This document shows, piece by piece, positions 12,093 to 61,400 of a stretch of 64,000 bases of DNA (position 1 is its first letter; each line of letters begins with the position of its first letter). The notes under the pieces were generated by a model that was not told the origin of the DNA, made no database searches, and was given only the letters and a program-made list of their open reading frames with translations. This stretch comes from Tribonema minus. Taxonomy: Eukaryota > Sar > Xanthophyceae > Tribonematales > Tribonemataceae. The position numbers and the translations under genes are program-made. The stretch is taken from positions 169,309 to 233,308 of the forward strand of contig JAFCMP010000118.1 in assembly GCA_017506865.1 (NCBI GenBank). Direction: 5' to 3'.

Positions 12093-12122
12093 CATCTGGG
12101 CTTTTTCGCGCTCTGAGCGAGA
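12093..12122 (+). repeat. Solo arm of the dispersed 30-bp hairpin repeat family
   Basis: Thirty bases beginning CATCTGGGCTTTTTCGCG and ending GAGCGAGA match, with one difference, the left arm of the perfect-length hairpin at 54,611-54,700. No second arm is found nearby, so this is a half element or a decayed copy. Confidence 0.8.
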
Positions 12123-13054: not shown

Positions 13055-13062
13055 AAGAATTT
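13055..13062 (+). repeat. 8-bp target site duplication, left copy
   Basis: AAGAATTT lies directly outside the left terminal inverted repeat. The identical octamer lies outside the right end at 14,022-14,029. An 8-bp duplication is characteristic of hAT-superfamily insertion. Confidence 0.85.
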
Positions 13063-14021: not shown

Positions 14022-14029
14022 AAGAATTT
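14022..14029 (+). repeat. 8-bp target site duplication, right copy
   Basis: AAGAATTT is identical to 13,055-13,062 and directly abuts the right terminal inverted repeat of the hAT-like element. Confidence 0.85.
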
Positions 14030-19794: not shown

Positions 19795-19904
19795 GCCAGC
19801 CTCACAACAACAAGTATGCATGCTTCACCTTTTGTAGTTCTGCGTTGAGGCCAGCCTCACAACAACAAGTATGCATGCTTCACCTTTTGTAGTTCTGCGT
19901 TGAA
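19795..19904. repeat. 55-bp tandem duplication beside the NTH1 stop codon
   Basis: A 55-bp unit starting GCCAGCCTCACAACAACAAG at 19,795 is repeated almost exactly at 19,850. It ends 13 bp before the NTH1 stop (19,918-19,920 on this strand), so it probably lies in that gene's 3' UTR. Confidence 0.85.
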
Positions 19905-19917
19905 GCCACGTCCAGCA

Positions 19918-22900
19918 TCATTCAAGCTTTCCCGAGCTTTCAAAGGATGGGCAAATGTTGCTGATCTTGCACAAACCGCACTTAGGCGATACTGCTCCGC
20001 AGACCTGACGCAGTCGCACGGCATGCATCGGCAAATCATGAGGCACATGGAGTTAACCTGACGTTCACGTACTCATAGGACCCCGGCATATGCATATATC
20101 TTCCGTGTATGCACAGTGGCATTGTCGCCACCAATCCCAGGATGCAAGTCCGACTGAGTCAGCAAGGGCGCCTGCTGGCTTTTACACCATTTTGAAGTGT
20201 GTTGTCTGACTCACTGTACCATGTCGAGTCATTCCTGAGTGCAATGCAGACATCCGGCGAGTCATTCAGGCGCATTCTGCTGCATGCAGGCAGCTCTCAT
20301 TCAAATTGCTGCCAGCTCAGAGACAATGGAGTCAGAATCTACTATGAACACTGAGGATCAGAAGCGGCTTTTCGAAACGAAACTCTTGAGCGGTGAGCCT
20401 TTGAAGTTACCTGTACTGTACTGTACCCTTCACCTTGCTCGTTTCTGAAGAAGCGGCTGACGTCAACCGCAAGTTAAAATTGTTGCAGCTCGAGCACAGT
20501 AGAACGTACATCTCATTACTTCATTTGACAGGCGCATATTATCGATGCAGATCTCCACGCACCCACGAGCTTGAGCATCAAATGCCACATAACGCGCAGT
20601 TCTGAGTGTGTTCCTGACAGAATGACAAGTGAGGCTAGGCCAAAACGCAGCATTTATACCAACGAGCCCCAGCGATGCCTTCGGCTATTTGTGGTAGACC
20701 TTTTTGAAAAACCATGGCGCACGGCATCTGCCACGCGTCTTGCGCTGAGACAAGCCATGAGCGAGGTGCGCGCTGGCCTCCCGCAACGTCACAAGAGCAC
20801 CCTCATATCTGCGATGTCAACTACCATACAGGCGTCATCCTCTCACGCGCTGCCAAGTCAGGCTTGAACCCCAACGCGATATCTCATCATCGCGTGCTCA
20901 CCTCCTGCCCGAAGCCCACTAATAAGAAGTTCACCTCGCTCCACAGCGGGCGCGGCAGCCACGCCTCCAGCGCCGCGCGCGTGAGCTCGGGGACCTGCGA
21001 GCGCGCGCGGCCATCCGCGCCTGAGCGCTTCCACGTTTTCACCCATCCCAACCTGTGGCGCGAGCGAGCGCGATGTCACCGCGGCGTCTCTGAGCTTGCA
21101 GCATTGACACTCGCGAGGTACGCCCCAAGCACATGCTTGCCCAAGCACGCGGTTCTTGAAAGCGCGGTTGTCGCAGCATGCCAGCGCACTGCGTGCCGAG
21201 GATTGCTCTGCCTCACGGGCGGTCCGGGTAGATGCGCATCCCCAGCGAGGGGTCGGGCTTGCGTCACGACCAGCGCGCAACTCGCGCACCGGTTTGAGGT
21301 GCGGTGCACATATATTCCCACGAATAATACCCCCCCTTCCCTGCCACGTGCATCCCCAACAAGGGGTCAGGCGTGCATCGCTGCCAGCGCGCAATGCGGG
21401 CACCGGTTTGATGCCCCCACTATCCTGTCTTGTGCACACCCAATCGGGCAAGGCGTGCGACTTGCGCACCGGTTTGAGATGCGGTGCACGCGGGTGTCCA
21501 CGCGTGTACCCACGCTATCCTGCAACGTGCATCCAGGGAGAAATACGCATATGCCCACGCTGTCCTGCCACGTGCACACCCAACCTGGGCCACAATCACA
21601 TCAATGCTTCAAGTAAAAAAGACTACAAGCTCCTTGCACGACTAATGTGGTGACGTGCACTGGTGCGTGCGCACGACTCCGCGCACCGGTTCGAGATGCG
21701 GTGCGCGCGGGTGTCCACGCGCATGTCTCCGCTACTGTACCACATGCTACATGATTCGCTACTCTACCACATGCATCCCCAGCAAGGGGCCGAACTTGCA
21801 TCGCGACTCGCGCACCGGTTCGAGATGCGGTGCACGCGCGTGTCCACGCATATGCCCACGCTGTCCTGCCACGAGCACTCACGCCGCAGCATGAGCTTCG
21901 ACCGTGCTGTTCTGCTGCCACTGAATGCTAGCCATCCAGGGGGGGGGAGTTCAACCCAACAAGGGGTCGGGCTTGCATCGCGGCCAGCGTGCGACTCTGC
22001 GCACCTATTCGAGATGCGGTGCACGTGCGTATCCACGCATATGCCGACGCTGTCCTGCCACGCCAGGTCCATGACGAGCGTCATAACCTTGGGGCCCACG
22101 CCCGGCAGCGCCAGGAGGCCTGCAGCATCCGGCGGTATGTCCCCGCCGTATCGGTCCAGCTGCAATGAGGCCACGGCACCGCGCACCGTTGCAGTTGCGG
22201 GCGGGGGTTTAGGGGGGTTCTCGCAAGTTCTCAATTCACAGCCTCAAGTACGACAAGATCTTCGGCAGCGGAAGTTATGTCTTCGCTGTATTTGTCCAGC
22301 TGTAACAAGGCCATGGCATCGCGCACCGTTGCAGTCACGGGCCGGGGTTTACAGGGGGGGCTCATTCTCGCAGGTTTTAAATAAACAGCCTTAAGCATGA
22401 CATGATGTTCGAAACTGGACATTGGTCAACTCCGAGTGAAGACGCGGCGCAGAGCGAAGTGGTGATGCAGTGGCAAAGGAGAGTTCTGTGGACATGGCGC
22501 TGCGATACGGGTGCCCAGAAAGGTGCTGGGCACTGGCGCCTTTCATGTGAGCCTCCGCTGTGGATATGACACCATTAGTGCCCACTGTTTGACACACTGC
22601 TTGCGCATGCCCCCTTGGTCCAGCCTACATGACACCCTGAAGAATTGGATTGAAGAAGTACACGACCGACCTTGTCTGTCATGTCTGTCGAATGGTGCCC
22701 ACTGTTCGACGCACTGCTTGCGCATTCAGCCTTTACAACACTCTGAAAAATTTCATTGAAGAAATACACATGGGATGGGCATGGGCCTTGTCTGACATCG
22801 GCAGTGCTCTTGCACGGCGACTCGACACGCGCGCTCACCAGCACGTCGCAGATTTTCAATATGCGCGTCGCCTTGGTCTTGTAGAAGCTCACGGGGCGCA

Positions 22901-24657
22901 CGGCATCCAGGATCTGCTCCTCGCTCTTGGTGCGCAGCACGGCAGCGCTCAGCGGCAGCGGGCTGCACAGTTGCGCCAGGGCCCTGCACGCCGCGGACGT
23001 GGCCTCATCGCGCGTCTGGCTGCTGAGCATGCCCGACAGCAGCACCTGGGCGCGCGCGGGGCATGCGGCATCACGTGTGTATATGTGTGGGGGGGGGGGG
23101 GGGGGGGGGGGGAGGGGGGGGATCAGGGTGGCCTGTTTGTGATGTCAACCTTTCAGCAGCACCTGGGCACGGGCGGGGGCGTGTGGCATGCATGCCCGAC
23201 AGCAGCACCTCAGCGCGCGCGGGGTGTGTGGCATCGCGGGCGTGGGTGCAAGTGCGCTGTGTGGGGTGTGGGGAGTATTGCGGCCTCCATTTGATGCCCA
23301 GTTTTTGCATGCATGGTTTCATGCCCTTTGCTGTGGACCACACGACCCAACAGGAACCCGTAAGCGTAGGTTAATGCCATTGATCGACAACAACCATCAT
23401 AGTCACATACAGGCGTTAGAAGTTTCTGAGCAGGTTGCTAGCACACACATGTACCCTCCATGACAGGCCATGGCAGCTTGACTACAGCGGCATACATTTG
23501 TGATGTTTTCTGCATCCACAACGACACGTCTGCTGCCACGAGTTCTGTAGCTGTTGGAAAAGTGGCGCCAACACGAGCGTCATCATCATCGCAAGAGCAC
23601 TGATGGCGGGATGCCCTGCGTGCTCATAGCTCACAAACCATTCGCTCTTCATGACAGGCACCTCAATACTACCAGTACCACATGTCCGGTAGTGCAAGTC
23701 TGTGTGCATACATGTCTGGACTGGTGTGAGCGCTCATATACCATGCACTGCTTGACACGACGGTCTCACTGGTGTCACACTGTCACGTCTGTGTTGTATG
23801 CATGTTACCACAATTTCAAGAGAGCGACAGGCCAGAAGGGTGCCATCATGCTGCCATTTTTGAACAGGCAACGCCGTGCTGTTAACATCAGAAGTGGTCG
23901 CACAGAACTTTAGAGTTATGCCGAGTGTCTTGATGTGCGTTTGCACGTGAAAAGCCAGCAGCCTTACGCGGCCAGAAACATGCCGCTGCTCGCGAAGATG
24001 AAGCAGTTGCGCCAGCTGCTCAGCAGAGGCATCGCCACAGCTGAGAGACTGCATGTGCCGGTGTGTCTGTGACTTTCTTACTGCGGATGCAGATACTGAC
24101 GTGTTCTTCTCCCAAAAAAGGAGTGTGCATACCTGAAAGCGCACATCTGCAGGAGAGGCAAGGGGGTTGGCTGCCAGCCCAGCTTGCATGATTGCCTGAG
24201 CGCCGTGCTCATCCACCGCTGCTGAGCCCCCCACCCTCATCGCCCGTATTCCAGCCAGCTGCTCCTTCCACAGCTCGGGCTCGGGCCCTGAAACAGCATC
24301 TGCCGGTGTTATCCGTACTGTAGCAGCTGCTGCCTTTGGTTTGACAGAGTTGAGCCGGCGCTTTGGTGAGGCAGCAATCGCTTCGTCAGAGGATTTGCGC
24401 TGCCGAGGTGGTTTTGGCCCGCCATCATCAGTAGAGGGTGCATCGTCATGATGCTCCTGGTGCTCGGACCCCCTTCTGCTTGCTCGCAGAGCTCCACTGC
24501 TGGCTGCGCCGTCCACGCTCCGACCATGCGAGGAATTTGTCAGAACTCCAATGGATGACGATGCAGTGCGCAACGAGCTCCAGCAGTAACTTTGTAATGC
24601 AGCAGGTTTCAGCAGTGCCAGCGCCGGTGGAAGCATGCGCGTCAGCAGCAGCAGCAT
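19918..24657 (-). CDS. NTH1: Endonuclease III (NTH1-type DNA glycosylase/AP lyase), 5 exons
   Basis: This is a base-excision-repair glycosylase with AP-lyase activity acting on oxidised pyrimidines. Minus-strand exons are 24657-24133, 23045-22839, 22159-22005, 21052-20902 and 20004-19918, totalling 1,125 nt (374 aa); all joints agree in phase and use GT-AG. Residues 1-175 are a variable, basic leader that may hold a nuclear or organelle signal. The catalytic core starts [14 protein letters not shown] (176). The helix-hairpin-helix motif LPGVGPK ends in the predicted Schiff-base Lys268, and VDTHVHR contains the catalytic Asp287. Exon 4 encodes [19 protein letters not shown]. The last exon supplies the [4Fe-4S] ligands Cys348, 355, 358 and 364 (C-x6-C-x2-C-x5-C). 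ATG 24657 is the first in-frame start. It diverges from the FAAL gene across 97 bp. Introns contain copies of the exon 2 and exon 3 junctions. Confidence 0.94.
20005..20901 (-). other. NTH1 intron 4
   Basis: An 897-nt GT-AG intron between the VGFGQE exon and the iron-sulfur exon. It shows no clear junction copies and no recognisable gene on either strand. The plus-strand frames here are chance. Confidence 0.7.
21230..21872 (-). repeat. Tandem decayed copies of the NTH1 exon 3 donor junction
   Basis: The end of exon 3 (the coding segment for [11 protein letters not shown], its GTGCGC donor and the following intron bases) is repeated in NTH1 intron 3. Clear copies lie near 21,811-21,872, 21,681-21,743, 21,464-21,530 and 21,282-21,350. 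Partial ones lie near 21,398-21,430 and 21,541-21,590. Several still read [14 protein letters not shown] and keep the CCGGTGCGCGAG donor context. They are duplicates of the active-site exon and not separate genes. Confidence 0.85.
22240..22360 (-). repeat. Copy of the NTH1 exon 3 acceptor junction
   Basis: Reading on the minus strand, this segment repeats the end of intron 2, the acceptor and the first codons of exon 3. The real junction encodes LDRYGGDI; the copy encodes the degenerate LDKYSEDI. It lies directly upstream of the real acceptor at 22,160. Confidence 0.8.
22580..22775. repeat. Tandem duplication in NTH1 intron 2, period about 117 bp
   Basis: GCCCACTGTT(T/C)GACRCACTGC, followed by TTGCGCAT and a TGAAGAA.TACAC segment, occurs at about 22,580 and again at about 22,697. 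It is non-coding and lies within the intron. Confidence 0.75.
23085..23215 (-). repeat. Poly-G run plus copies of the NTH1 exon 2 acceptor
   Basis: A nearly uninterrupted G run (C run on the coding strand) at about 23,089-23,120 lies just upstream of the exon 2 acceptor. Beyond it, 23,155-23,215 contains two copies of the acceptor region with GGTGCTGCTGTCGGGCATG-like starts. The C run may serve as part of the polypyrimidine tract. Confidence 0.75.
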
Positions 24658-24754
24658 CCTCTAATGCAGGCTGAGCACAGGTGAAAAAGCGTTGAAGTTG
24701 CGTTAACGGTTGAAGTTTTCAGTTGATATCTTATCTAACACACGCGTACGGTTC
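24658..24754. promoter_or_regulatory. 97-bp divergent (bidirectional) promoter region
   Basis: The NTH1 ATG (24,657, minus) and the FAAL ATG (24,755, plus) are separated by only 97 bp, so both promoters and 5' UTRs must share or overlap this segment. It contains two GTTGAAGTT words around a GTTAAC palindrome (24,691-24,718). No TATA box is evident. An in-frame TAA at 24,704-24,706 upstream of the FAAL ATG supports that start. Confidence 0.6.
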
Positions 24755-45296
<20,542 letters not shown>

Positions 45297-46649
45297 GCCA
45301 TGCAGCCAACGCACCTGACCTCGACGCGACAACGTGCGTGGGCGCGTGAAAGCGCGCCGCGCGCAGCGCGCTTTCACGCGCACAAGCACATCAACCACAG
45401 CACATGCGACTAAGCCATGCGGCCAACAAACCTGACCTCAATGCGATGCGCGTGAGCGCTTGCAAGCGCATCATGCGCACGAGCACGCGTGTCTTCGACG
45501 CGCGGGCCTCCGACGTTGCGCGCCACAGCGATGCACTATTGAGTGCGCGGCGCTTGCTGCGCGCAGCACGCGCACCTGGGGGGCACAGCTTAGAGTCGTG
45601 CACGGCACTTTGGCGCCAACTTCAAGGCCGCGTTGTAGCCTGTGCACCGGCACAGCTTGACGACTCCGCGCTGCGTCGCATGTCCTGATGTTTCTCGTCG
45701 TTCCAACATGCCGTAGGCTGAGAGGTAGTGGTAGTGTGTCTCTGTCGCGTGCAGGGCCATGAGCGATGTGCATGGCGCTGATTCCTACTCAGTGTCATGG
45801 GCGTGACATGCTCAAGCAGCACGTGGCGCACTTGCCAGAAGCACTGCGTACGGCAGTCACAATCATTCAGAGTATGGCAGTCTCGTTTGCGTGACATACA
45901 AGCAGCATCGCATGGCGCACACGAGTGCGGACAGCCGTGTAGAGGGCATATGGGCCGATAGCATGCAGCACATGCAGTCACCTCCCTCCTTTGCGCGAGA
46001 CGCGTCTGTGCAACACACATCGAATTGGTGCCGGCCTTCCGCCATCTCAATGGCACAACGGTCGCCGCAACATCGCGCGTAGCCGCTGAATTCACTGTGA
46101 CGTGTCTGATGCCTTTGTGTGTGCCGCAAACCTTGAATGTACAGCGCAACAAGACTTTCTGTGGTGTGAGTGACGCGCTTAGCACTTTGCGAAACCCTGC
46201 GGTGCAGTGCAACCAATCACGGAGTGGGTGTGATGTTGTTGGCACGTCCATAATGACACCACAAAGCATGACATTGCAATTGGAATCATCTGCGGATGTG
46301 TCTTTTTCTGATCATCTTTTAGCCCTTAAGGCCTATTGAGCTCCATACAAGTTTGCAGCCTTGTCATGTCCGTGACAAGCAAGACACAGGATGCACGCCC
46401 GTTGGGTGCAGCAAGGAATGCGCTTGGTTTGAGTTTGGCACTCATGCAGGGGCGTGTGCAAATTACAACCTCCTGCAGCACCATCCATTGAGGATCATCG
46501 AACACTAACCAGTTGCTCGCACCTCGATTCAGATGAGCATCATCGATTGTCACCTTCCTAGACCCCCTTATTAGACAATCACGCTTGCCAGCAGAGGCAG
46601 CAGCTGGAGAGGAGCGTGGGGACGCGGTCTGACAGAGGAGCTGAGAGGC
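45297..46649 (+). other. FAAL-CYC1 intergenic region
   Basis: About 1.35 kb between two co-oriented genes. It begins with a perfect hairpin (45,342-45,381). A degenerate copy of the FAAL stop region follows at 45,400-45,460: ACACGCGACTAGGCCATGC.GCCAAC at 45,286 recurs at 45,404. The rest holds no recognisable gene. The CYC1 promoter must lie in its right part. Confidence 0.6.
45342..45381 (+). terminator. Perfect 16-bp-stem hairpin 45 bp after the FAAL stop
   Basis: GCGCGTGAAAGCGCGC, an 8-nt loop, then its exact reverse complement. It lies in the predicted 3' UTR between the stop codon (45,294-45,296) and the duplicated stop-region copy. It could influence 3'-end formation or mRNA stability. 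It could also be a palindrome created by inverted duplication. Confidence 0.55.
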
Positions 46650-49600
46650 ATGCTCTCTCGCCTAGCTTCCAGGGCGCTCAGGCCCCATGCCGTCGCGGTG
46701 AGTGCCAACGCAGTCACGCATTTCCACAAGCATGATGAACCAGCACAGTGAGCACCTGCTGGTGACTTCTTCGCAGCTGCAAACGCATCAGGCGCATGTG
46801 CAACGGAGCGCTGCACACGCTTCTGCCGCTTGCGCTGGCCGCAGCCGCCTCCAGTGTGTGTAGCAGTCGAGTGCAAAAGGTCTCGGCCTCTATGATCCGT
46901 CGGTGTTTGGCCTCTCGGGAAGCCTCACGTCGCTCTCGCGACTGCCTTGCTGCTATCGACAGGCTGGGTTGACTGCATCCGCTGCGGCTGGTGCAGGAGC
47001 CGCTTTGTGCAACGATGACTGCATCCCCTCACTGTCATACGGCTGGCCCCAAGACGGAGCGCTGTCCTCGTTTGATCACGCAGCGTAAGTACGGTTCGTG
47101 AGTATGTGGAGCATGGACACTGCAACAGATTCGATAGAGTAGTCTGCAGCTTCAGCAGTGCGCGCTTGATGTGATGCCTGTTGCACTGTCATATATGTCG
47201 CTTCAGGGTCTCGTTCAGGTCTTCCATATACAAGCTTCAGACAGCCCTCTGGAAGCATGGATTGCAGATTCGTCAAACGGCAGTGGTGGCTGGTCATAGA
47301 AGCAGTGTGTGTGGCTTTCGAGTATTGCCACTGCAAAAGCTGCAGTTGGAAATCTGATGGTGATGGGCCTTCTGTCAGAGCAGTTACCCTACGGAGAGCT
47401 TTGCACTCGTACTGCCATGTGCGCCTTGCCTGTGCACGTCGCCAGACATGCAAATATGAGTATCGAGACGTGTGAGCACCTTCCTGTTATACTCATAGCC
47501 GCACGTTCAGTGCCGGCGCGCGTCCGGCTCTCTCCACTTGCTGATTGCTGCTACTTGATTGAATCACCAAAACTACCCCCCTTAATTTAGGGCAGCAGGC
47601 AGCTTGGAGTCGGATTTACACCAGGTCTGGACTCAACCATGACGAAAGTCGTCCTGCGGCAGGCCAAGTGAAGTGTAACTTCTGCTACAGGCAGACCCTG
47701 TCGTGCATGCAATGCACATGCTACTGAGCACTGACACTCGCCATGCCCTCGCTACCGCCGTTGACTGGCGCCGCAGCATCCGCCGCGGGTTCCAGGTGTA
47801 CCGGCAGGTGTGCAGCTCGTGCCACTCCATCCAGTACATCAGTTTCCGCAACTTTGTCGGAGTGACGCACGACGAGGCGGGCGCAAAGAAGTTGGCCGAG
47901 GTCAGTGACTCTCCCATGCTACTTCAACTACCACTTGCTACTTCAAGTGCTGTTTCTCTTGTGTAGCCGGTTTCTTGCGGAACAGTCTGCGCTGCCTGTC
48001 ATCATTTGCTGTTGCGATGCTCGCCTGTATTGGCCGTACCGAACAAGACCGTCCTATGCTGGCACGGCTGCTGGTTCTATGACAGCTACTTGGTTGTAGC
48101 GTGTTTTGCTACTCTCTATGATAGGCTGTATGTATCATGACAGCGCTGCGCTTTGTTGTGGCGTAGTGAATGCCGCCATGAGCTGAACAGGCCGCATTTA
48201 GTCGCCGGTGTGTCGCGTGCGCCGCAACTCGCAACAGCAAATGCGCCTGCGCTCACATCATTGTGCATGTTTTGACTCTTGTGCCGCGGCGCACTGGCGG
48301 CGGTGGCGCTGCTGCTGGCGACTGGCGGCGGCGGCGCCGGCGCGCGGCTGCGCAGGAGTTTGAGGTGACGGATGCTCAGCCGAATGACGACGGCGAGATG
48401 TTCGAGCGGCCCGCCAAGCTCTTTGACAGGTGAGCTCGCTGGGCGCTAAGAGCACGGAGCTTCGGCGCGATAACTAAGGCATCCACTTTGAAGGAAGGGC
48501 CTTGCTCCATTCTGAAATGGTCCAGGCGCTGCATAGGCCAATAACAATGGCGAGATGTTTGAACGGCCCGCCAAGCTCTTTGACAGGCGAGTTTGCTCTC
48601 AGCGCGCAGTGCTAAAGGAGCGCAGAGCATTGGCGCGATGAACGTGGCATTCGCTTTGAAGAAAGGGCCCTGCTCTTGTTCTCAGCGATACAGGCGCTGC
48701 AAGGCAGAGCTGTTTGACAGGTGACTTTGCTCAGCGCTGAGGGCACGGAGCTCTGGCGCAATAGAGAAAGGGCTCTGCTCCTTGTCACGATGATACAGGC
48801 GCTGCGAGGCAGAGTACGTGCGGGCCGTTGTTGGCACGATGCTAGAGCAGCCCGTCAAGCTGTTTGACGGGTGAGTTTGCTCAGCGTCAAGAGCACGGAG
48901 CTTTGGCGCGATGAACGTCGCATCTGTTCGAAGGAAGGACCCTGCTCCTGTTCACAACAACCCAGACACTGCAAGGCAGAGCTGTTTGACAGGTGATTCT
49001 GCTCAGCGCGCAGCGCCAAGCACGCGCGGTGCTTGTCGCGCTGAGTGTGGCGTTCGCTGTGAATGAAGGTCCCTGCTCCTCTTCACAACGTCCAGGCGCT
49101 GCAAGGCAGAGACTACGTGGGGGGACCTTTTTCCGCAGCTTTGTGGCATCTAGGATTGGCGTGCGGAGCAGGGAATTCTTGCGCGCGTCGTGCCGTCCTT
49201 GTGCATATGCGTGGCGCTTCAATTCGGCGTGCGGCAGGAGTTTCCGTGTAGTGCCGGCGATGCAGCGGAATGTATCTTGATGCTGCTCCTGGTCGCCTCT
49301 ATCTACATACACGTGGGATGCGCGACTGCCAAGCATGTGTTGAAGCGAGCAGTTGAAGTTACAGCTGGGCACGTCATCGACACGCCGCAGTGTGCGTGCT
49401 CAGGAATCTAGACGTCTTGCAGCCCACTGCTGCTCTCTATGCGACCTGGCTGCGTTGGCCACGATTCCAAGCCTTCGTGCACTGTATGTAATGTAACGTG
49501 CCTGTATGTACTGTACCGCACCCAAGCGCGGTCAGCCGAGTCATTTGTGGTGCAAGTCGCAGAGCACTTGCGCGGCGGAGTCGGCGCAGTTGCACAAATT

Positions 49601-52600
49601 AGGGTTAGGGTTAGGTTAGCGTTAGGGTAAGCGGTAGGGCTACCGCGGCAGGTTAGGGTTAGGGTACTCGCGGCGGCCATCTTGTGAAGTGCACGCATCA
49701 CCACTGGTGGCAGCCTGCTTTGCCCCCGTCCTGTACTGGCCCCAGCAGCGAGCCTCATGTACCTGCCTCACATACCTAACCCACCTACTGTACCTCTGCT
49801 CCCTCCCCCCCCCCCCCCCTCATACAATCACACACCTCACAAAACCTAGCCTGACATGCCTGCCTCACAGTACCCACGCCCGTCCAGGCACCTGGGGCCA
49901 CGCAGGATTGAGCGAAGCGGCGCGCCCAACTTAAACCCAACGGCATGTATATTGTATACCGCACAAACCAAGCTTGAGATGCATACTGTACCTCACAAAA
50001 CTACCTTACCTACCCCCGCAACCCCCAGGTACCCTGGCCTTTACAGGAACGAGGTGGAGGGATGCGCGGCATACAGCTCACATACCCACACAAACGTAGC
50101 CCAATGTATCTACCTCATAAAAGTACCTTACCTACCCCCGTACCCCCTCCCCAGGTACCCGGGCCCATACAGGAACGAGGCGGAGGGACGCGCGGCTCAA
50201 GGCATACATACTTCACAAACCTGACGCAAGATACATGCCTCACAAACCTACATACCCGCCTACTCCCGCAACCCCCAGGTACCCGGGGCCGTACAGGAAC
50301 GAGGCGGAGGGGCGCGCGGCCAACGGCGGAGCGCTGCCGCCCGACTTGTCGCTCATGACCAAGGCGCGCCACGGCGGCATCGACTACGTCTTTGCGCTGC
50401 TCACAGGCTATGCGGACTCTCCGGCTGGCAAGGACTTGTTGCCGGTGCGTCACTGCTTGAAGCTTAGATTTTCGTTTGAAGTATGTTGAAAAAGTGCAGT
50501 TTTCGCGCTGCTCACCGGCTACGCGGACTCGCCCCCCGGCATGGACCTCCTGCCGGTGAGCCGCCTCTCTTCTTTGTTGTGTCGAAGTAGAGTGTTGAAG
50601 TACGTGGCGGAGCGCTGCCACCCGACCTCTCGCTCATGCCGCGGCGGCGTCGACTACTGTGCGTCTTCGTGCTGGTCACCGGCTACGCGGCCGGCTGGCA
50701 AGTGCGTCACCGCTTGAGGCCTAGATCTTCGTATTGAGTATGTCGAAAAAGTACATTTTTTGCGCTGCTCACCGGCTACGCGGACTCGCCCGCTGGCACG
50801 GACTTGTTGCCGGTGTGTCGTCGCGGGCTTAAAGTCCTGACTTTAAAGTTGAGGTATGTCCAATACGTAAGCGTAGACTTGCGTCTTGAAGAATGTCAAA
50901 TGAGTACGTGTTGCGCTGTTCACCGGCTACACAGACTTGCAGGCCGGCAAGGACTTGTTGCCGGTGCGTCGCTGCCGCGTGCTTTGCATCGTGCGGCACG
51001 TCCATGCTGATTGTTTGCCTTGAAGTTCATTTAAAGACTTCTTCAAGAAGTACACCATTGGTTATGCAAACTCGCCTGCCGGCAAGACCCGTCGCCGGTG
51101 CATTCCCCCTACGCCCTTGTCATCTTCAACATGATGTTCAACTTGAAGTAGTCCAGAGCCCCCGCGGCATCGGTGGCGGCCGTCGCAAAGGCGGGCAGCG
51201 AGGGGACTGCGTGCCGTCTGCGCCCCCTCTCGCACCCTGACTCGCGTATGGCGTCCGCTCCCGTTCTTGCACGCGAGTTTGCGGTCACGCGCCGTCGCCG
51301 ACAGCTCACGCCTGCCGCCTTGTGTGCTGATGCTTCCTGGCGGCTGGCTTCTGCAGCCTGCAGTGAGCGCTGCAAGTGACGTTGGCTGACCGCCGCACGT
51401 CCCCGCATGGTCCGTTGCACACACAGCTCAACCTTGCTTTGTTTCGTCCAAACAAGTTTCTCGCGCTTTTCTTCTCTGACTTTGGCGTTTGGTTTTCTTG
51501 CCAACAGGGCCTGTACTACAACCCGTACTTTCCCCTGCGGCGCCATCGCCATGCCAACCTCTTCCAGCTGATCGCTGACCCCCCCCCCCCCTCTTCAAAT
51601 CGCTGACACCCCCCCCCCCTCTTCAACGGGCTATTCTCACAAATGCTTATCAAATTGTCATCATCGTTTGTGTTGCTGTTTTCAACAGGGCCTGTACTAG
51701 GGGTTGTACTACGAGTTGTACTTTGCTGGCGGCGCCATCGCCATGCCAACCCCCTTCAGTTGATCTTTGACATTTCCCCTTTCTTCTTCAATGGGCTACT
51801 CTCAGTGAAAGAAAACCAATATCGTTCTGTGTTACTTTTTCAACAGGGCCTGTACTACAACCCGTACTTTGCGGGCGGTGCCATCGCCATGCCGCCGCCG
51901 CTCATGGACGGCCAGGTGGAGTACGAGGACGGCACGCCCGCTACCGTCACGCAAATGGCCAAGGTGAGAGACTCAATGTAGCGATCATCTGCAGACGTCC
52001 CTTTAGCAAGTACTATGGCGCACTGAGCGCCATTCCCATGGCGCCCTGAATGCCGTTAAAAGAAGGAAAATGGTGTTATGTCAATGATTCCCTAAAAGTA
52101 CGAGGACGGCACGCCCGCTACCGTCATGCAGATAGATGGCCAACGTGAGAGACTTGAATTATGTACGTGGCGACCATCTGCAGATTGCCCCTTTCAAGCG
52201 TACCACAGCGCCCTGAATGGCAACAAAGGAAGCAACCAGGCGTTGCTGATGTCAATGATTTCTTTGTCAAAGTAGAAACAATCAAAGAACAGAACCGCAA
52301 GCCCTGGACGGCGCTCGCGAGCGTTTTTGATGCAGGCGGGCAGGTGTGAGCACCATACCTACCGATCACGACGGCACGTCCGCGACCGTCACGCAGAGGG
52401 CCAAGGTGGGAGGCGCCTATTACGTAGCGACTGTCTGAGGCGCGAACCATGCAGCGACTGCCTTCAACCTGCGACCATCACGCAGGTGCTGCGCTGATTA
52501 TGTAGCGACTCTCTTCAACTCGTGACTGCCATGCAGATGGCCACGGTGAGGAACGTGCATCATGTGACATGGCGACTTTCTGCAGGTTTTGTCTTCAGCG

Positions 52601-54015
52601 AGGAGACAGCTACAGCGCCCTGAATTCCAACAACAGAAGGAAAAAGGCATCATTTATAACATAACAATCAACAATTCGCTATCAACGCAGAAAAAACAGA
52701 CGGCTCTTGCGAGCGCTCTTGATGCGCACAGGCGCGAACACCATACATTCCTACATGTGCATACGTGCATTCATGCGTAATATCGGTGCTCAGCGCTCAG
52801 CATCAACAGTCCTCGCGAGCGCCTCTGAAGCACGCTGTCGTGAACACCATATATGCCTGCATAGGTATGCATACATGCACATGTGCATACATGCATGCGT
52901 ACACACAAACACACATACATACATAAAGGTACATATATGCATACTTTGAAGTACGTACATAGAAGTGCGTTTCAGCGTCGTATCCGTGCTCAGTGCTCAA
53001 CATCAACAGACCGCATCACGAGTGTCCGAGCACGTCAGCGAGTGCTTTTGGGCGGGTGCAAGCGCTGTGGCCAGTGGTGCCCTAGGGTTAGGGTTAGGGT
53101 TCGGTGCACAGCGCACTGCGATGCCAGCGCCACCACGAGCGTCGCAGCGTCGTGAAGCCTCGTGCCACAGCGAATTTGCGCAAAAGACATCTGCGCGTCT
53201 CCTTCACTTCACTGCCATCTCTTGCCACCTCAACGCCCTTGTTTGCCCCCCTCCCCCCCCCCCCCCATATACCCCTTAGAGTGTATAGCCTCTTGTCGCA
53301 GATTTTTGCACGACAACGTCGTCATGTCTCACGTGTCTTCACTTCACCTCTCACACCTTCAACTCGTGTATCCCCTCCCCCCCCTTCCCCGAGCGTGCCA
53401 CCTGTAATCAAAGAAGAAGTGCCTGCGCAATGACGATGCGCCTCGTTCACAACTTCACCTGCTGTAAAGATCCACTTCAACTGTTGCACCCCCCCCCCCA
53501 CACACACACGCCCCCTCACCCACAGGATGTGTCACAGTTCCTGGCGCAGTGTGCGGAGCCGGAGCACGACAAGCGCGAGAGGTTTGGCGTCAAGGCCGTG
53601 ACAGTGCTCGCCGCCTTCAACTATTGTAATCCTCAAACTTCAACTGTTGTACCCCCCCTCCCCCCCCCCACAGGACGTGTTGCAGTTCCTGGCGTGGTGC
53701 GCGGAGCCGGAGCACGACGAGCGCAAGAAGTTTGGCGTCAAGGCCGTGACAGTGCTCGCCGCCCCATGCACAACTTCAACTATTGTAAACCTCAAACTTC
53801 AACTGTCGTACCCCACCCCCCCCCCCCCCCCCCCCCCCCCCCGGCAGGACGTGTCGCAGTTCCTGGCGTGGTGCGCGGAGCCAGAGCACGACGAGCGCAA
53901 GAAGTTTGGCGTGAAGGCCGTGACAGTGCTCGCCCTCGGCATCGGCATCACGGCGTACTACAAGCGCCTGCGGTGGGCGCCCGTCAAGACGCGCAAGATC
54001 ACGTACATGGAGTAG
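46650..54015 (+). CDS. CYC1: Cytochrome c1, haem subunit of complex III, 7 exons
   Basis: Transfers electrons from the Rieske protein to cytochrome c in mitochondrial complex III. Exons: 46650-46697, 46963-47084, 47777-47900, 48356-48429, 50279-50444, 51847-51963, 53848-54015; 819 nt, 272 aa, all GT-AG and phase-compatible. Exon 1 ([16 protein letters not shown]) is an amphipathic, basic mitochondrial presequence. [14 protein letters not shown] leads into VCSSCH (Cys69, Cys72, His73), the covalent haem site. [14 protein letters not shown] and [12 protein letters not shown] follow; Met193 is the predicted axial ligand. [22 protein letters not shown] and one membrane helix (about 237-258) with the KTRKITYME tail close the protein. 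The canonical CxxCH differs from the single-Cys euglenozoan form. Start: first ATG of a textbook presequence. Exons 4-7 are each flanked by decayed copies of themselves. Confidence 0.97.
47085..47776 (+). other. CYC1 intron 2
   Basis: A GTAAGT-AG intron of phase 2; no clear repeats. The AG before 47,777 completes Ala57 and restores [15 protein letters not shown]. No internal gene. Confidence 0.8.
48430..49110 (+). repeat. Four tandem copies of the CYC1 exon 4 donor junction
   Basis: The exon 4 end (GAGATGTT.GA.CGGCCCGCCAAGCT.TTTGACAG then GTGAG) recurs near 48,550-48,585, 48,702-48,722, 48,845-48,871 and 48,978-48,993. Each is followed by the same intron start (TTTGCTCAGCG...GAGCACGGAGC). 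Unit length is roughly 115-150 bp. Donors remain GTGA or GCGA. Confidence 0.9.
49597..49665 (+). repeat. Telomere-type tract in CYC1 intron 4
   Basis: About eight TTAGGG or near-TTAGGG units, interrupted by GCGGTAGGGCTACCGC, itself a small palindrome. Confidence 0.88.
49875..50278 (+). repeat. Copies of the CYC1 exon 5 acceptor junction
   Basis: CCCCCAGGTACC then an exon 5 start ([12 protein letters not shown]) occurs at about 50,031 and 50,152, before the real acceptor at 50,278. A more degenerate copy is near 49,890. Each unit includes a CCTACCCCCGYAACCCCCAG polypyrimidine end, and the period is about 120-127 bp. Confidence 0.9.
50445..51120 (+). repeat. Five copies of the CYC1 exon 5 donor junction
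   Basis: The exon 5 end (CTGCTCACCGGCTACGCGGACTC...GGACTTGTTGCCG then GTGCGT) is repeated near 50,507, 50,610-50,705, 50,764, 50,912 and 51,058. The second copy reaches back to [11 protein letters not shown] and has an internal deletion. Copies alternate with TTGAAG-containing intron starts. Confidence 0.92.
51500..51800 (+). repeat. Two copies of the CYC1 exon 6 acceptor junction
   Basis: CAACAGGGCCTGTACTA then an exon 6 start (GLYYNPYF) occurs at 51,504 and 51,686; the real acceptor is at 51,846. Both copies continue to GCCATCGCCATGCC before diverging. The second contains an in-frame TAG, so it could not be used as coding sequence. Confidence 0.92.
51964..52600 (+). repeat. Copies of the CYC1 exon 6 donor junction
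   Basis: TACGAGGACGGCACGCCCGCTACCGTC..GCA..TGGCCAA then GTGAGAG recurs at 52,097-52,150. Degenerate forms lie near 52,364-52,412, 52,470-52,485 and 52,520-52,552. The first still reads [11 protein letters not shown]. Confidence 0.9.
53081..53101 (+). repeat. Short telomere-type tract in CYC1 intron 6
   Basis: Three TTAGGG-type units lie upstream of the triplicated exon 7 region. Confidence 0.8.
53526..53847 (+). repeat. Two in-frame upstream copies of CYC1 exon 7 with poly-C runs
   Basis: The exon 7 start ([25 protein letters not shown]) is present at 53,526-53,616 and 53,675-53,763, before the functional copy at 53,848. Each is preceded by a C-rich tract and CACAG or GGCAG acceptor, and followed by CTTCAACTATTGTAA..CTCAAACTTCAACTGT. 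The upstream copies lack the transmembrane segment and have no GT directly after LA, so normal mRNA probably skips them. Confidence 0.93.
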
Positions 54016-55472
54016 TAGGGGCCGGCGCTACTAAGGGTCACTGGTGGGGGTCATAGGCATGGACGGGGGGGGGGGGGGGGGGTTGCGCTATGCGGTGTCG
54101 CAGCAAGGGGGTGGCGGTTGGGGAGGGGGGGGGGGGGGGCTGCAAGGCAGTCGCGCTCGCCATCACTGTGTGCGGGGCCATAAGAAGCGAGGCCGAGTCG
54201 TGTGGGATCAACGGGCAAATGTTCTTTATGACAACTGCGGCTATGGGTTATTTGTTGGCTTCCTCTGCTTGTACATCTGCTGCGCTGCCTGCGAATTTGC
54301 TTGAGTTCACGAATGTGTTTCAGCACGGTCCCCATTCATTTCTGTGCCGCGTGACCTTGGTTTTTTTTACCTCAACACTTGGCCGCCCTTTCATTGGATG
54401 TCCTCACAGCTCAGCGCTTACCTGGTTCACCACTCTGCAGTACAGATCGCTCCAGATGCAAGACTGCAATTGCAGACCATGGTAGGCATGTACGTGCGTG
54501 CGCCAACACCGATGGAACGTGCTGCTTCGAAGATGCATAAACTCACTGTACATGGTCTCTCTGGTGCCAGACGGCTAGTACATATAGATTCCGTACAGCT
54601 AGATGCCCATCATCTGGGCTTTTTCGCGCCCTGAGCGAGACTTCATTTATAAAAAGTACTGGTTGTCAACTCTCGCTTGGGGTGCGAAAAAGCCCAGATG
54701 GTACTTAGATGTCCAGCTTGCTTCAGAATCTACAGGTGCCTTGTTTTTAAAAATCTCGAAAGGGTCTCAATGTGCATTGGCAATCACTTCTTGATGACAT
54801 TGCCAAGTGGGATATATCCCCCGCCACCAAGTCCTCGCCCAACCCCCCCCCCCCCCCCATTCCGCCTTGTGCGTCCTAACACGCAAAGAGTACGCCATGT
54901 GGAGCGCTGTCGACAGAGCTGAGCGTATGCGCGCCAGTGCAATGCTTTTCAACGCAGCATGACTGTCACTGGCTGCTCCGAGCACCGAAAACCCGCTCGA
55001 TGCTGTGTCCATGCGAGCGTGGTTGACTTTTCTTCATGGTCAAAATGGGGAGATCGACACGTTACACTAATGACGGACTGAAGATGATGACACTTGGCTG
55101 CTGCACTGAGGTGCACACTGTGGCGCATCCCTCCACAATGGGAATCGAGCCATTTTCAGTTGCTGTAGGTAATTAATTGGTCCAGCATGATACAATGGGG
55201 CAAATCTATTGCAGCCGAAATAGGCTCATCTCGAGGCAAAAAACAAGCCGTATTCAGTTTTGGGGGAGAATGCCCCCGGCGGGAGCCCCCCGAATGCCGT
55301 GCCGCCTCGACACAACACTGGCACGCAGCAAGGCTGGGGGCGGGAGAGGACAAGGGCGGTCGTGGACACAGCGGATTGAAGGCAGGGCCGTCACTAGCAA
55401 GCGCAGCAGGCGAACGCGGTGGTGGCAGAGCAGAGGCGGCTATTTGTCCCTGGAGAGAGACGAGAAGGCACT
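54016..55472. other. CYC1-UblBTB intergenic region
   Basis: Poly-G runs at 54,065-54,081 and 54,127-54,138, the 90-bp hairpin element at 54,611-54,700, and a poly-C run near 54,843-54,858. No recognisable gene. The promoter of the Ubl-BTB gene lies in the right part. Confidence 0.6.
54611..54700. mobile_element. 90-bp hairpin element (two 30-bp inverted arms)
   Basis: The left arm 54,611-54,640 starts CATCTGGGCTTTTTCGCG. The right arm 54,671-54,700 is its reverse complement with about three mismatches, around a 30-nt spacer. A single arm occurs at 12,093-12,122, and related decayed arms lie at 59,628-59,860. The copy number and the inverted structure suggest a miniature inverted-repeat element or a small-RNA-type hairpin. 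I find no clear target duplication. Confidence 0.7.
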
Positions 55473-58400
55473 ATGGCAGCAAATCAGCAGGGAGCCAATG
55501 GCAGTCGAGCGAGCGTCAACGAGCACGTGGAGTTTGTTGTGAAGGTGAGCTGTCTTGCTGCTCTCGTCCTTGTTCTGTCGCCAGTCGATGCTGCAGAGGG
55601 GTTGTGTCTTCGTCTGTACATAGCCAGCGCGTGTTGTGTTGCATCAGAGGGAGATTTGTGGGTGAACCGCAATCATCATCGCAGCAAAAGCCAACAGGAG
55701 GCAGTCAGCACCATGTTTGTCTCATTCCGCCCATTCTCCGCTCGGCGTGCGGGCAGCCGCCAGTGCGGTGCGTCCGGTGCGATCCCATTCGCTGACGGGC
55801 GGAGTCCCCAGGGGCACAGTGCCTGAGTTGTGCTTGTACACGCGTCTGGCAATCGTTCAAAGTGCGAGATGTCTTTCGCTTGTCCATCATCGCGTCGACA
55901 TCAAGCATCCTGTTCATCGCAACAAGAACAAGTCGCGCCTCGAGAAGTACCCTTTCGGATGTGTTGTCGCTAGTGTGCAAATCCTGGCTGAACCAGCCCC
56001 TTGCCGGCTGCGACAGCTCTGTCTCGGCCTCTTTCCGTCTGCTACTCCTCTGAGATTACTTTGTGCGACGTCCAAGCGTGTCGTCGCACTTTTCGTGTCA
56101 GCCTTGACACAACGCCTCACCTCACTGTGTGCTGCCTTCCACATCTGCTGTGTCGTTGCTCGCAGGCAGCAGAGGATCTCATACTGGAAGGGAAGGAGCG
56201 GAGCTTGGTGCGCGTACGTGCAGGCACCCCGTACAGCTGTCTAATGCTCAAGAACCAGAGGTTCTCGAGTCTCTTCCGTCACTATGCCAAGCACCATGGG
56301 CTCAGGAAGGAGGACCTGGCTTATTACTTCACAGAGGCGCTGCAGAATGAGGTGGGATGTCATCCAGATATACAAGTTATGCAAATGGCCAGTTCAATAG
56401 TCCTGTACTTTGAGCGTGATGGAGGCACTCCTTGGCAGCTCAGAAGTGTTTTTGAACTGCACAGCTCGTGCCCCATGGTACTGAGGCTCTGGTGTGGCAC
56501 TGGTTCTTCAAACCTGGCTGTGCGCACAGAATGCAGCCTTTCGGCGCCTTCCGAGATTTGCGACAGTGGTCGGTCCAAAGTGCAAAATTGAAGTACATGA
56601 TGTTGAAACCCAGAATGTAGAGGGCCTTAGCGTCAGAAGTCAACTCAAGGCGAACTGCGTCACCTATAAAGCTGGTGCGGCAGTCTTCAATCACGGCGCA
56701 TCACCGGAAAAGGCGGCGCCACAGCATGAGCGTGCGCACTGTGCTTTTGAGGCGAACCTCAACTGCGCGGACGCACTCTATACTTCAACCCATGACGCGC
56801 CGCAGGACACGCCGGAGTCCATCTTCCTGCAGCCGCGCGACGAGGTGATTGTGCGGAAGCGCCGCCTCAACCAGTCGGACGAGGACAGCGAGGATGACGA
56901 CATTGAGGACCTCAAGGCGTCGGGCGAGCGCTTCATCTCTCAGGTGCGCTTTTGGAACTTCAACAACTCGTTGCTTTCTTTTGTGCACACCTGCACATGG
57001 TGGTAGTGCTCAAGCGATGATACGCGCTTGGGACCTCAAGGCGTCGGGCGAGCGCTTCATCTCTCAGGTGCGCTCTCGGAACTTCAACTCGTACGCACAT
57101 GGGTCGCAGTGCGCGCCGCACGCAAGCCTTGGTCTTGCTCTGCAGCACCTCACTCAAAGTCAGTCGAGGCGTCGGGCGAGCGCTTCATATCTCAGGTGGG
57201 GTTTTGGGACTTCAACCTGTTGCTTTGCACATGTAGTGCTCAAATGATGATACGCACCTAGGGTCTCAAGGCGTCGGGCGAGCTCTTCATCTCTCAATTG
57301 CGGTTTCAGAACTTCAACTGCTTGAGTTCCACACCTGCATGTGGTGGTGGCTCAAGCGATGATACGCGCCTATGACCTCAAGGTGTCGGGCGAGCGCTTC
57401 ATCTCTCAGGTGCGGTTTTGAAACTTCAACTTGGACGCACATGGAGGGCTGTGTACGCCCGCGCTAGCCTTGGTCCTGCTTTGCAGCACTTTACCCAACT
57501 CAGTGCTGACCCTGCCTCAGCGCATGCTGCTCAAGGCAGTGTTCCAGCTGACGCTCGTTGCCTGGGTGTGCGCCGCTCGCTGTTGGCTTTTGTTGGTGCC
57601 CGTGTGAGGCACGCTCAACTGCACTGCTGACCCTGCGGCCCGGCGCGCTGCGCGCTCGACGGCCTTGGCTGACACACTCATCACTCGCTGCGCGTATGCG
57701 TGCCGCATCTTGGCTGCACCTGATCATGTGCGTGCCGCGTATTGGCTTCACCTCAGCACTCGCTGCGCGCATGCGTGCCGCGTGTTGGCACGCAGTTCGG
57801 CTGCGCGCTCGACGGCCTCCGCTGACGCTCTCATCGCTCGCTGCGCGTTTGCGTGCCGTGTGTTGGCTGCAGTTCGGCGCGCTGCTGGCGGACGATGAGC
57901 ACTGCGACGTCACGTTCTTCGTCGGCGATGTGAGTGCCCCCCATGCTTGCATTCTTGAAGCGCTTCTCCATTGTTGAAGTTGGCGCGGTCTGTGCTGCAG
58001 CGCCCTCGGCGGCGACGCATTTCAACCCCAGGAAAGGGGGCGTAGCGGGGGTGCCGCGGCGGTGATGGGTGGCAGAAGCGGCGGTGGCGGAGCATGCCAT
58101 GGGCTCTGGCCGCAAGCTGCTCATGGGTGCTGACGTTTGTGGCGAACTTCAATGTTGAACCATATGATGAGTTTAAGTTCACCTGTGGCCCCACCGCGCT
58201 GCCCCTCTTCCAGCACGCCACTGCAGAGGTAGCAGCAGCGCTCAGCGCTGGTCCCCACGCCAGGTGTCTCTTGTCATGACATCGATCGGACGAGTGCGTC
58301 TTGCGCAAGTCGTTGCAACTTGTAACTTCAACTTGTGCGCCCCACCCCCATGTCGAAGGTGGTTTATCAGGTCAGTCACTGCGCGGAGGGGCACAAACTT

Positions 58401-61400
58401 CAAGTTGGTCGGTCGCGGACGACAGTGCAGCGCGCACAACGGCGCACGCAGGCTGAGTGAGCCTTGTCGATGTGCACTGTGCTCTCTGCTTACGACTGGA
58501 CGCGCGGCTCACGGCGCCGCATTCTCAACTTCAACTTGAACTTGGACAGGCGAAGGCGCCCGTCAAGGCGCACAAGGTAGTGCTCGTGGCGCGCTCCGAA
58601 TACTTCCGCAACATGTTCCGGCGCGGCGCGATGCGGGAGGGCGCGACGTGCGAGGTCAGCATTGAGTCGCACGAGGAGCAGACGGTGCGCTGGATGCTGG
58701 AGTACTTCTACACGAATGAGGTTGTGGACCTGCACAGGTGCGCCGCCCGCTTCAGCTTCAATCCTCAACTTCGAACTTGAATTAAATATTTCCATTTGCT
58801 CACCAGCGAGGTCAAGGACCTGCACGGCTGTGTTGTGCTGCTGGAGCGTTGTGCACTTCAAGTCCAACCTCAACTCCAAACTTCAAGTATTGATGTTCAG
58901 CTCTTTGGTTGGTGGGGGGGGGGCTGACACAGGCCGCTCTGTCGCTTGAGTTAGGGTCAGGCACCAGGAACGTGCAGCCCTGATTGTTGCTGCTGCCGCC
59001 GCTGAGAGCTGCGGCGTATGACGGTTTCACTTTTTGGCATGGCGACTGCTGCAGGATCTTAAGTACTCGAGAATAGGGGTAGAGCTGGGCTGGGTTGGGG
59101 TTGGCGTAGGGGTTAGGAGTAGGTCTAGGACTTGGGTTAGCAACAGGGTTTGGATAAGTGTTCCGGGCAGGGGCGCCAGATGCGCGCAGCACTGCTTTCG
59201 CGGAATGCCTCCACACGGCTAGGGCAGGCGTGCGCAGCGGTGTGCAGCGCGCTGCTGCCGCCGTCGTCGCCGCGTGCCGTGTCATCTGGCAGCCATTCTG
59301 CGCAGGCCGCACAGCAGCCGCTGCCCGGCGTGCTCGGCGAGCCTTAGGGCTGGGGTTAGCACCTGTAGGTACGCTGTCCGTGCGCTGACACATCTTCCAT
59401 TCTGCGAATCATTCGCTTTGCAGGCGCGCTGAACTGCGCGCTGAACTGCGCGCTGACGACAGCGGATGCTGTGAGGACGCGTGTAGGGTTTACCCGCTCC
59501 CCGGTGTGTCATTCGGAAGTGATTGCCGTTGCGCATGGAGACGCTTTCAATTTGTCGCAAGATACCTGGAGGTCCGCATTGAGAGACGCTTTCAATTTGT
59601 TGCAAGGTACCTGGTGGCGGGACGTCCACCACCTGGGCTTTTCTGCCCCTCAACCGAGGATGGAATGACAAGCACAGCACGCCATTCTCTTGTCATTGCG
59701 ACACGTGCACGGAGGCAGGTGCTGGGCGTTTTTGTGCCCCAAGCGAGAATCGACTGACAAGCACAACACAGAATTCTCTTAAGACAGGCGCACAAAGGAC
59801 TAGGTGGCGGTGATCCTGTTGATATTGGTGGGCTTTTTCGCCCCGCAAGCGAGGATTGCAAGTACAACATACTTGAAGTATGAATTTCAAACATGAAGTA
59901 TACACTTCAAGTGACGAAAATGCCCAATTCTCTCGTTACCGAACCAGGTGCACGGCGGACCAGGTGGCAGCGGTGCTGTCTATCGCGGAGGAATACCAGC
60001 TGCTGGACCTCAAGAAGCTGTGCGAGGTGACGGCGCGCGGCATTGTGACCACGGCCAATGTCGCGCGCCTCCTCGCCGCCGCCGAGCAGTTCCACGCCGC
60101 GACGCTGCGCAGCGCGTGCATGGCGTTCGTGCAGAAGAACATGTCGGACTGCGCGTACAACACGGTGCGTGTGCAGCGCAGACACTTCAATTCACGTGTG
60201 TGTACGAACTTCAAGTGTGAAGTTGCCTGCGTGTGTGCTTGGTCGGGTGTAGTTCCACGCCGCCACGCTGCGCAGCGCGTGCAAGACGTTCGTGCGGGAG
60301 ACATGTCAGTTTGCATGTACAACTCACTACGCATGCGCTACCTTCTTGTCGCACACTGTGAACTCGAAATGTGAAGAAGCTCGCTGATCGTTGCCATGGC
60401 GGAGTGCGCGTTGTCGTATTGCGCAGTTTGTAAAAAGCAGAGCGCGTGCGGCCGTCATTCGTGGGTGCAGCTGAAGTTGACGTATACAGCTGGTGTCCGT
60501 GCTGCGCTGGCATTCGTGCAGAAGCACCACAGTGGGGCTGCATCACAGACGTTTGAAACGCGCGCCACTATTCCCACGACACCAATTGGTCATGTTGGTT
60601 TCTTCACATTGGTCCAGACAGCGGCGGCGTCCAGAAGGCACTACCATCGGACTGCGCGTGCGCAACGCGGAAGCGAGCGCCGCCACATTTACGTCCACCA
60701 ACAACACGTGTTACTGTAGTTTCTTCACACAGGCCTGTCAAGGGGTTTTTGAGGTGTGGGCTGCAGCGCTCAACACAACCTTCTGCAGCGCTCAACTCAA
60801 CCTTCTGCACCGCGGCGAGGCGCACAGGGGCACTTTTGCCTCACTTCATATCCATCACTGTTGCTCGGCCATGAGCTGCAGATGCCCTAGCCTTCGTTCA
60901 CATTACGCAACACGTGCTTCGCTCTATGTGTGCAGTCGTGAAACGTTTCTCCCCATGCCCTGCGGCGCCTTTTCGCGGTTGCCCATGTCCAACACACACG
61001 TGCTGTTGGTCCGCTGCAGGTGCCCATATCTTCAACCTTGGTGCGCTGCTGGTTGTGTGTCATCGCTCAACACCCCCTGCACCCCCCCCCCCCTTCCCCC
61101 CCCGCTCTCCCCGCTGTGGCTCATTGTGTGCGCTGCTCAATGCCCCCCTGCACGACACCCCCCCCTGCGCAGTCGTTCACAAGCGACCTCATGGTAACCC
61201 CCTGTGGCTCGTTGTGTGTCATCGCTCACCATCCCCCTCCCCCCCCCCTCGCCCCCCTCGTGTGCGCAGTCATTCACGAGCGACCTCATGGTGACCCCCA
61301 AGCTCTGCGTCTCCATCCTCAAGCACATCTCCGGCGACACCAAGCCGGACGCCGCCGGCAGCGCCTCCAACCGTGGCACCAAGCGCCGCCGCGTCGACAT

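Follow-up and report, generated by a model that had tools for sequence, protein, structure and literature searches.

Many introns of a 64,000-nt stretch of the Tribonema minus genome (assembly GCA_017506865.1, contig JAFCMP010000118.1, positions 169,309 to 233,308 of the forward strand; the whole stretch is hereafter called the window and numbered from its first letter) carry serial, partial copies of their own exon-intron junctions. These copies are probably the product of ordinary tandem duplications of about 140 bp, tolerated across one junction because the exon-proximal splice site is still used. They occur in all four spliced genes of the window, coding for an endonuclease III family protein (NTH1), a FAAL, cytochrome c1 (CYC1) and a BTB-domain protein, respectively. 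An initial annotation of the sequence had proposed as much, and it holds on frame-consistent models of all four genes; the further claim that most introns carry such copies stands only just, with 15 of 26 introns.

The first line of evidence is a self-comparison of the window. Among pairs less than 2 kb apart, 124 are direct versus 5 inverted at 40 bits or more, and 86 versus 0 at 60 bits or more. At 36 bits or more and distances of up to 3 kb, local direct copies account for 43% of the bases in introns, 22% of those in exons and 5% in the remainder of the window, which is unannotated; the units are hence not seen to be common outside introns. Within exons, such copies span 11% of the positions that are 30 nt or more away from an exon end. 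A duplicated unit with at least 8 nt on each side encloses 10 of the 26 donors and 11 of the 26 acceptors, so that the duplicated units straddle exon-intron borders, as had been claimed; a looser definition of a junction copy likewise gives 15 introns. Many of the main arrays run head to tail (their alignments are no shorter than the repeat period), and the median repeat period is 137 bp over 65 tandem families. Two types of units are distinguished: about 10-120 nt from the exon end are joined to the intron start in donor-type units, and about 10-90 nt from the exon start to the intron end in acceptor-type units.

The second line of evidence concerns which exon end recurs in which intron. The genes of the window, together with chaperonin genes and a CYC1 paralogue from the same 158-Mb genome, provide 64 introns in 13 genes. 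Chaperonin exon pairs were left out where there was no splice prediction (four pairs) or a poor fit (the last intron of L037 and the second of L039); L043 yielded no introns. For the 59 introns longer than 250 bp (24 in the window, 35 elsewhere), 60-nt exon ends were compared with the intron. Matches in the exon's own intron are found for the 3'-terminal 60 nt of the upstream exon in 20 cases and for the 5'-terminal 60 nt of the downstream exon in 15. With another intron as control the counts are 0 and 1, and shuffled as well as reverse-complemented introns give no exon-end match. The two outcomes named as refuting by the initial annotation, similarity no higher than between shuffled pairs and units common in intergenic DNA, did not appear in these comparisons. 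The side is equally specific: the start of the upstream exon recurs in 0 of 30 introns, the end of the downstream exon in 0 of 29. The window contributes 9 upstream ends and 6 downstream starts in its 24 introns, the other loci 11 and 9 in their 35; arrays of junction copies thus occur beyond the window in the same genome.

In total, 89 copies are spread over 38 of the 128 junctions. Junction-spanning units with at least 8 nt on both sides make up 37 of the 65 tandem families, and 46 of 65 include at least 8 nt of exon; units that include an exon end are therefore the majority. Nine families are intronic under the former definition and exon-boundary under the latter, and the family class 'DA' refers to both ends of an intron rather than of an exon. 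Collapsing the recognised copies reduces the 53.3 kb of examined intron DNA to 36.0 kb, that is, by about a third. In whole-exon tandem duplication, including mutually exclusive exons, exon sequence is copied beside its source. The copies described here differ in being partial and decayed: none of 44 internal exons lies whole inside a local copy, in line with the distinction drawn by the initial annotation, and not one of the 273 pairs is confined to a single exon.

Gene models of the window were built from reading frame and homology, with Pfam and PDB searches as backing. All four are in-frame (FAAL 12, CYC1 7, BTB 7 and NTH1 4 exons) through GT-AG or GC-AG introns. NTH1 (20902..24657, reverse strand; Pfam HhH-GPD, 1.2e-17) consists of exons 24657-24133, 23045-22839, 22159-22005 and 21052-20902, is modelled up to but exclusive of its 3' end, and has GT-AG introns throughout. 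Its donor-type array at 21236..22062 (reverse strand) repeats the end of exon 3, the 5' splice site and the intron start around the true junction at 22005/22004. Acceptor-type copies on the same strand join the intron end to the start of exon 3 (22136..22411; 78% over 136 bp) and to the start of exon 2 (23027..23238).

The FAAL gene (24755..41660, forward strand) has exons 1-6 at 24755-25410, 26078-26234, 26938-27106, 28451-28518, 29585-29984 and 32125-32277, and exons 7-12 at 33353-33465, 33691-33846, 35838-35993, 37445-37572, 40422-40581 and 41484-41660; more 3' exons are likely beyond the model. The first 676 residues match Pfam AMP-binding (2.6e-55). An 'exon 6' of an early model was withdrawn for a frame break. 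All of its arrays lie on the forward strand. Donor-type arrays follow exon 5 (29958..30333, containing a 66-bp unit three times), exon 6 (32235..32648), exon 8 (33810..34434), exon 10 (37495..39604) and exon 12 (41580..42115, whose donor is outside the 26 counted introns). The array after exon 10 is the largest, with a 153-bp unit and 13 copies of the exon end. Single donor-type copies are found for the end of exon 3 (27080..27421; 87.5%, the alignment including 5 nt of intron) and after exon 9 (35934..36292; 81% over 155 bp). Acceptor-type arrays precede exon 4 (27868..28471), exon 6 (31596..32202), exon 9 (34798..35886) and exon 12 (40942..41514). Four introns of this gene (7, 9, 10 and 11) are of the GC-AG type; GC donors number 5 among the 64 introns overall.

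CYC1 (46650..54015, forward strand) consists of seven exons, 46650-46697, 46864-47084, 47777-47900, 48356-48429, 50279-50444, 51847-51963 and 53848-54015; an early cut of exon 2 contained a stop codon, and its boundaries were changed. From exon 3 onward (211 residues), residues 1-209 align with a solved cytochrome c1 (PDB, 5.1e-83). On the forward strand, donor-type arrays follow exon 4 (48383..49123), exon 5 (50325..50975) and exon 6 (51920..52648), and acceptor-type arrays precede exon 5 (49989..50320), exon 6 (51502..51893, two copies) and exon 7 (53439..53934, two copies). The CYC1 paralogue L055 also has acceptor-type copies at exon 5 and one at exon 6; none was found there at exon 7, and counterparts of the donor arrays after exons 4 and 5 were looked for in L055 and not found.

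The BTB-domain gene (55473..61455, forward strand; Pfam BTB, 1.2e-23) has seven exons at 55473-55544, 56166-56351, 56806-56943, 57873-57929, 58550-58737, 59948-60164 and 61270-61455. The initial annotation had labelled it Ubl-BTB; no ubiquitin-like family is among those listed for the protein by a Pfam scan at E ≤ 0.001. On the forward strand, a donor-type array follows exon 3 (56887..57498), an acceptor-type array precedes exon 4 (57647..57882), acceptor-type copies precede exon 7 (61048..61299), and a copy of the end of exon 6 lies at 60088..60323 (85%; the alignment ends 3 nt before the junction). At the thresholds used here, junction copies were not confirmed in FAAL introns 1, 2, 4 and 7, CYC1 introns 1-3 and BTB introns 1, 2, 4 and 5; the exon numbering may differ between the initial annotation and the present models.

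An unselected sample of the genome consists of eight 8-kb stretches at round coordinates, in which exons were called by a codon-usage score. In the window, this procedure makes 22 calls, of which 21 fall on known exons, and it recovers 21 of the 30 exons, although these are partly its training exons. In the unselected stretches, boundary copies are found at 13 of 37 predicted exons, in all 13 cases on the expected side: ten have copies of the exon start upstream, three have copies of the exon end downstream. Rows linking two similar open reading frames (L045) and rows linking exons to each other (L050) were excluded before counting. In the duplicate-rich stretches L046, L047 and L050 (30-39% covered), every call lies on one strand, as in a spliced gene. 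The five duplicate-poor stretches (2-14% covered) have calls on mixed strands, except for L049, and three of them contain a call longer than 800 bp. Three exons of L050 contain PPR repeats.

Comparison of paralogues places some of these events in time. The chaperonin-60 paralogues L041 and L042 have seven aligned exon blocks in common; L042 harbors 23 partial exon copies, L041 a single one. Of the copies in L042, 21 touch an exon border on the expected side and two are interior. At sites where the true exons differ, they agree with their own exon in 249 cases, with the paralogue in 29 and with neither in 21 (sites recur across copies, hence the counts are not independent). The copies therefore arose after the split of L041 and L042. 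The first modelled intron is 2382 bp long in L042, compared with 357 bp in L041. A 645-bp intron, L042:7902-8547, is absent from L041. It is assembled from three donor units and copies of acceptor units, and CAG|GTG stands at either end; it may represent a gain in L042 or a loss in L041, and appears to be built almost entirely from copies of its own borders. By sequence comparison, local copies are also present in L057, one member of an LHC (light-harvesting complex) pair, with none in its partner L058, and several are present in the BTB paralogue L056. The paralogue pairs point to junction duplications as events that lengthen introns, as the initial annotation had supposed.

These observations suggest the following sequence of events. 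Local head-to-tail tandem duplications with a median period of about 140 bp would arise in the genome, and a duplication reaching from an exon into the adjoining intron would create two copies of one splice site. If splicing takes place at the copy nearest to the exon body (exon definition), the mRNA would be the same and everything beyond would become intron. With repeated rounds, arrays would extend outward from the exons and unused copies would drift neutrally. Duplications within exons would be purged by selection and purely intronic ones would also happen, the net effect being introns that grow mostly from their own edges. That the exon-proximal site must be used to yield the protein is suggested by homology and reading frame; the splicing rule and the silence of the duplications at birth would follow the same reasoning. 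With exons of 181 nt and introns of 833 nt on average (64-intron set), the gene structure suits exon definition. In a minigene study, splicing under exon definition, with 365-nt flanking introns, took place only at the upstream one of two identical donors, while pairing across short introns involved the closest sites (PMC9225289).

The predominance of junction units over intronic ones could reflect short ancestral introns, or else a ratchet: removal of a unit by recombination through the exon would bring in decayed exon sequence and would be selected against. In a wider form of the preferred reading, introns of this algal lineage would grow chiefly by duplication of their splice junctions, in a process that reinforces itself. 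Longer introns would favour exon definition, exon definition would silence junction duplications, losses crossing exons would be selected against, introns would sometimes be born in this way, and junctions would be favoured beyond what geometry predicts. We consider this wider form less likely than not.

Several observations weigh against the preferred reading, in its narrow or wider form. Array-poor genes exist: the number of exon-boundary families is zero in L036 and one each in L035, L037, L038 and L041. The newest copy adjoins the exon in 13 versus 8 arrays, a weak trend that is not significant. The 13 CYC1 copies of the window agree with their own exon at 36 sites, with the paralogue at 27 and with neither at 7 (5 versus 1 for the four copies of L055); they do not clearly group with their own exon, so that some arrays predate the gene duplication. 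For acceptors, exon definition merely reduces the preference for the upstream site in the minigene study (PMC9225289), and the silence of acceptor duplications is accordingly less supported. The acceptor AG is retained in 25 of 26 copies versus 21.0 expected (P 0.02), with other exonic AG retained in 52 of 62. Outside the window, families with at least 8 nt on both sides of a junction show no excess (16 of 31 versus 14.5 expected, P 0.34). Finally, junctions of the window are spanned no more often than positions in the intron interior (40% each; circular shift, P 0.24), in a per-base test that is blunt because arrays hold many daughter copies.

The last two results are those expected if general tandem-duplication noise acts at an even rate everywhere. 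This explanation shares the duplication step, denies any extra bias and attributes the link to junctions to geometry only; we give it nearly an even chance. The corresponding null model combines random duplications with purifying selection on exons, uses collapsed intron lengths and was run in 20,000 simulations. For families with at least 8 nt of exon, 46 of 65 are observed versus 24.0 predicted (P printed as 0.0; present intron lengths would give 14.1), and outside the window 23 of 31 versus 14.5 (P 0.0007); for families with at least 8 nt on both sides, 37 of 65 are observed versus 23.9 predicted. These excesses speak against mere noise, as does the density of tandem families, which amounts to 1.22 per kb of intron versus 4 in the 30.0 kb of the rest of the window. 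Without the window, L042 and L055, the excess shrinks to 11 of 17 versus 7.3 (P 0.04) and, at 15 nt or more, to 9 of 17 versus 6.8 (P 0.19), and hand arithmetic under the same null indicates that ancestral introns of about 230 bp would yield the observed 71%. A first per-event estimate (28 families seen, 2.4 expected) was dropped, because it was based on present, already expanded intron lengths.

Age does not separate the two kinds of families, which also speaks against noise. Identity thresholds by which almost every young family would belong to a junction (24 of 25 at 87% identity or more) were rejected as evidence, since the constrained exon inflates identity, and intron columns were used instead. 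Their identity is 0.824 for junction families (28 introns) and 0.824 for purely intronic ones (6 introns only); by this measure junction families would seem to be no older. We note that the majority of units including an exon end is in large part a consequence of protected exons with short introns between them. The data hint at a junction preference in excess of geometry but do not settle it: targeting by the mechanism itself is possible but unproven, given that the null alone predicts 24 of the 46 families, and the interpretation of the initial annotation is to this extent partly supported.

Under a further explanation, which we hold to be unlikely, the copies would persist because they function, be it as alternative or recursive splice sites or in the role of regulatory decoys. 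The acceptor AG excess mentioned above is a weak hint that some copies could be used or selected, and GT or GC is present in 42 of 47 donor copies. Retention of donor dinucleotides, in contrast, matches that expected from exon identity (28 of 35 versus 27.7 without the array of FAAL intron 10, 39 of 47 versus 35.5 with it), and arrays differ between paralogues. The exon parts of the copies diverge freely, with frame-shifting gaps in 14 of 96 aligned cases. Between exon and copy, identity is 89.3% in exon columns and 82.1% in intron columns (27 introns; exon higher in 21); the exon columns diverge less, as would be expected with only the copy free to drift and its exon partner constrained. Judged by these comparisons, the copies appear to decay as unselected DNA.

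Intron birth by the Rogers/Hellsten route, in which an exonic AGGT segment is tandemly duplicated to become an intron, would make the arrays remains of such births. The two processes are alike in that a local tandem duplication converts gene sequence to intron, and the intron found only in L042, almost all junction copies with CAG|GTG at both ends, would fit. That model, however, requires a purely exonic unit, and the expected geometry is absent from the 59 introns: the upstream exon end matches the intron end in 1 of 59 (control 0) and the downstream exon start matches the intron start in 0 of 59 (control 1), which leaves this route very improbable. Introners or other mobile elements as the source of the repeats can practically be dismissed. 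A single dispersed short element is present in several introns, but pairs within introns are 142 direct versus 4 inverted (at least 40 bits), and the 18 pairs found in 2016 intron combinations, paralogous ones aside, were assigned by position to this element and to a telomere-like repeat.

The dispersed short element is found in both orientations in introns of unrelated genes (26255-26375 and 27984-28058 on the forward strand, and about 37299-37411 in FAAL intron 9 on the reverse strand), and a search of the genome yields at least 41 matches (best 40 of 1490 candidates scored). Interstitial TTAGGG-like repeats lie in or near introns at 29119-29186, 41317-41376, 42606-42649, 42957-42996 and 49599-49639. 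The same repeat is present at many contig ends; for comparison, the telomeres of Phaeocystis globosa are given as CCCTAA (PMC11347835). The motifs ACTTCAA and TTGAAGT are about 20-fold above first-order expectation in the 64 introns, a figure inflated by array copies. The density of CTTCAA and TTGAAG within introns peaks in the initial 50 nt, but they occur about as often as in introns in window positions 1-20000, a region with a G+C content of about 48% (about 58% elsewhere in the window) and few local duplications. The genome contains 92 exon-wise light-harvesting matches, with one fragment nearest to fucoxanthin-type proteins and another nearest to other LHC chains, indicating a photosynthetic alga.

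The closest known case is the RdRp gene of potato, in which tandem duplication of a segment across an intron-exon boundary, a single event in one gene, produced a new spliced intron (PMC4974935). Its unit, consisting of intron end, 3' splice site and exon start, corresponds to the acceptor-type units described here; the present units differ in that they are serial, involve donors as well as acceptors, occur in many genes and mainly lengthen existing introns. Introners resemble the arrays in a fast genome-wide increase of intronic sequence, but are copies of an element inserted into many genes (PMC9860276), whereas the arrays examined here resemble their own junction and not other introns, as the initial annotation had held. 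A single junction-spanning duplication has hence already been published. Serial intron growth by junction duplication across a genome is apparently new, with no report among the literature matches listed.

Long introns are usually attributed to transposons. In this alga, local duplication, which mostly involves the borders of the intron itself, accounts for about a third of the examined intron DNA, and the chaperonin paralogue pair catches intron growth in progress. Each array constitutes a natural experiment in splice-site choice, in which similar sites compete and the exon-proximal one apparently wins. A single organism thereby allows two questions to be tested: by what means introns lengthen when mobile elements are not involved, and whether exon definition operates in a unicellular alga.

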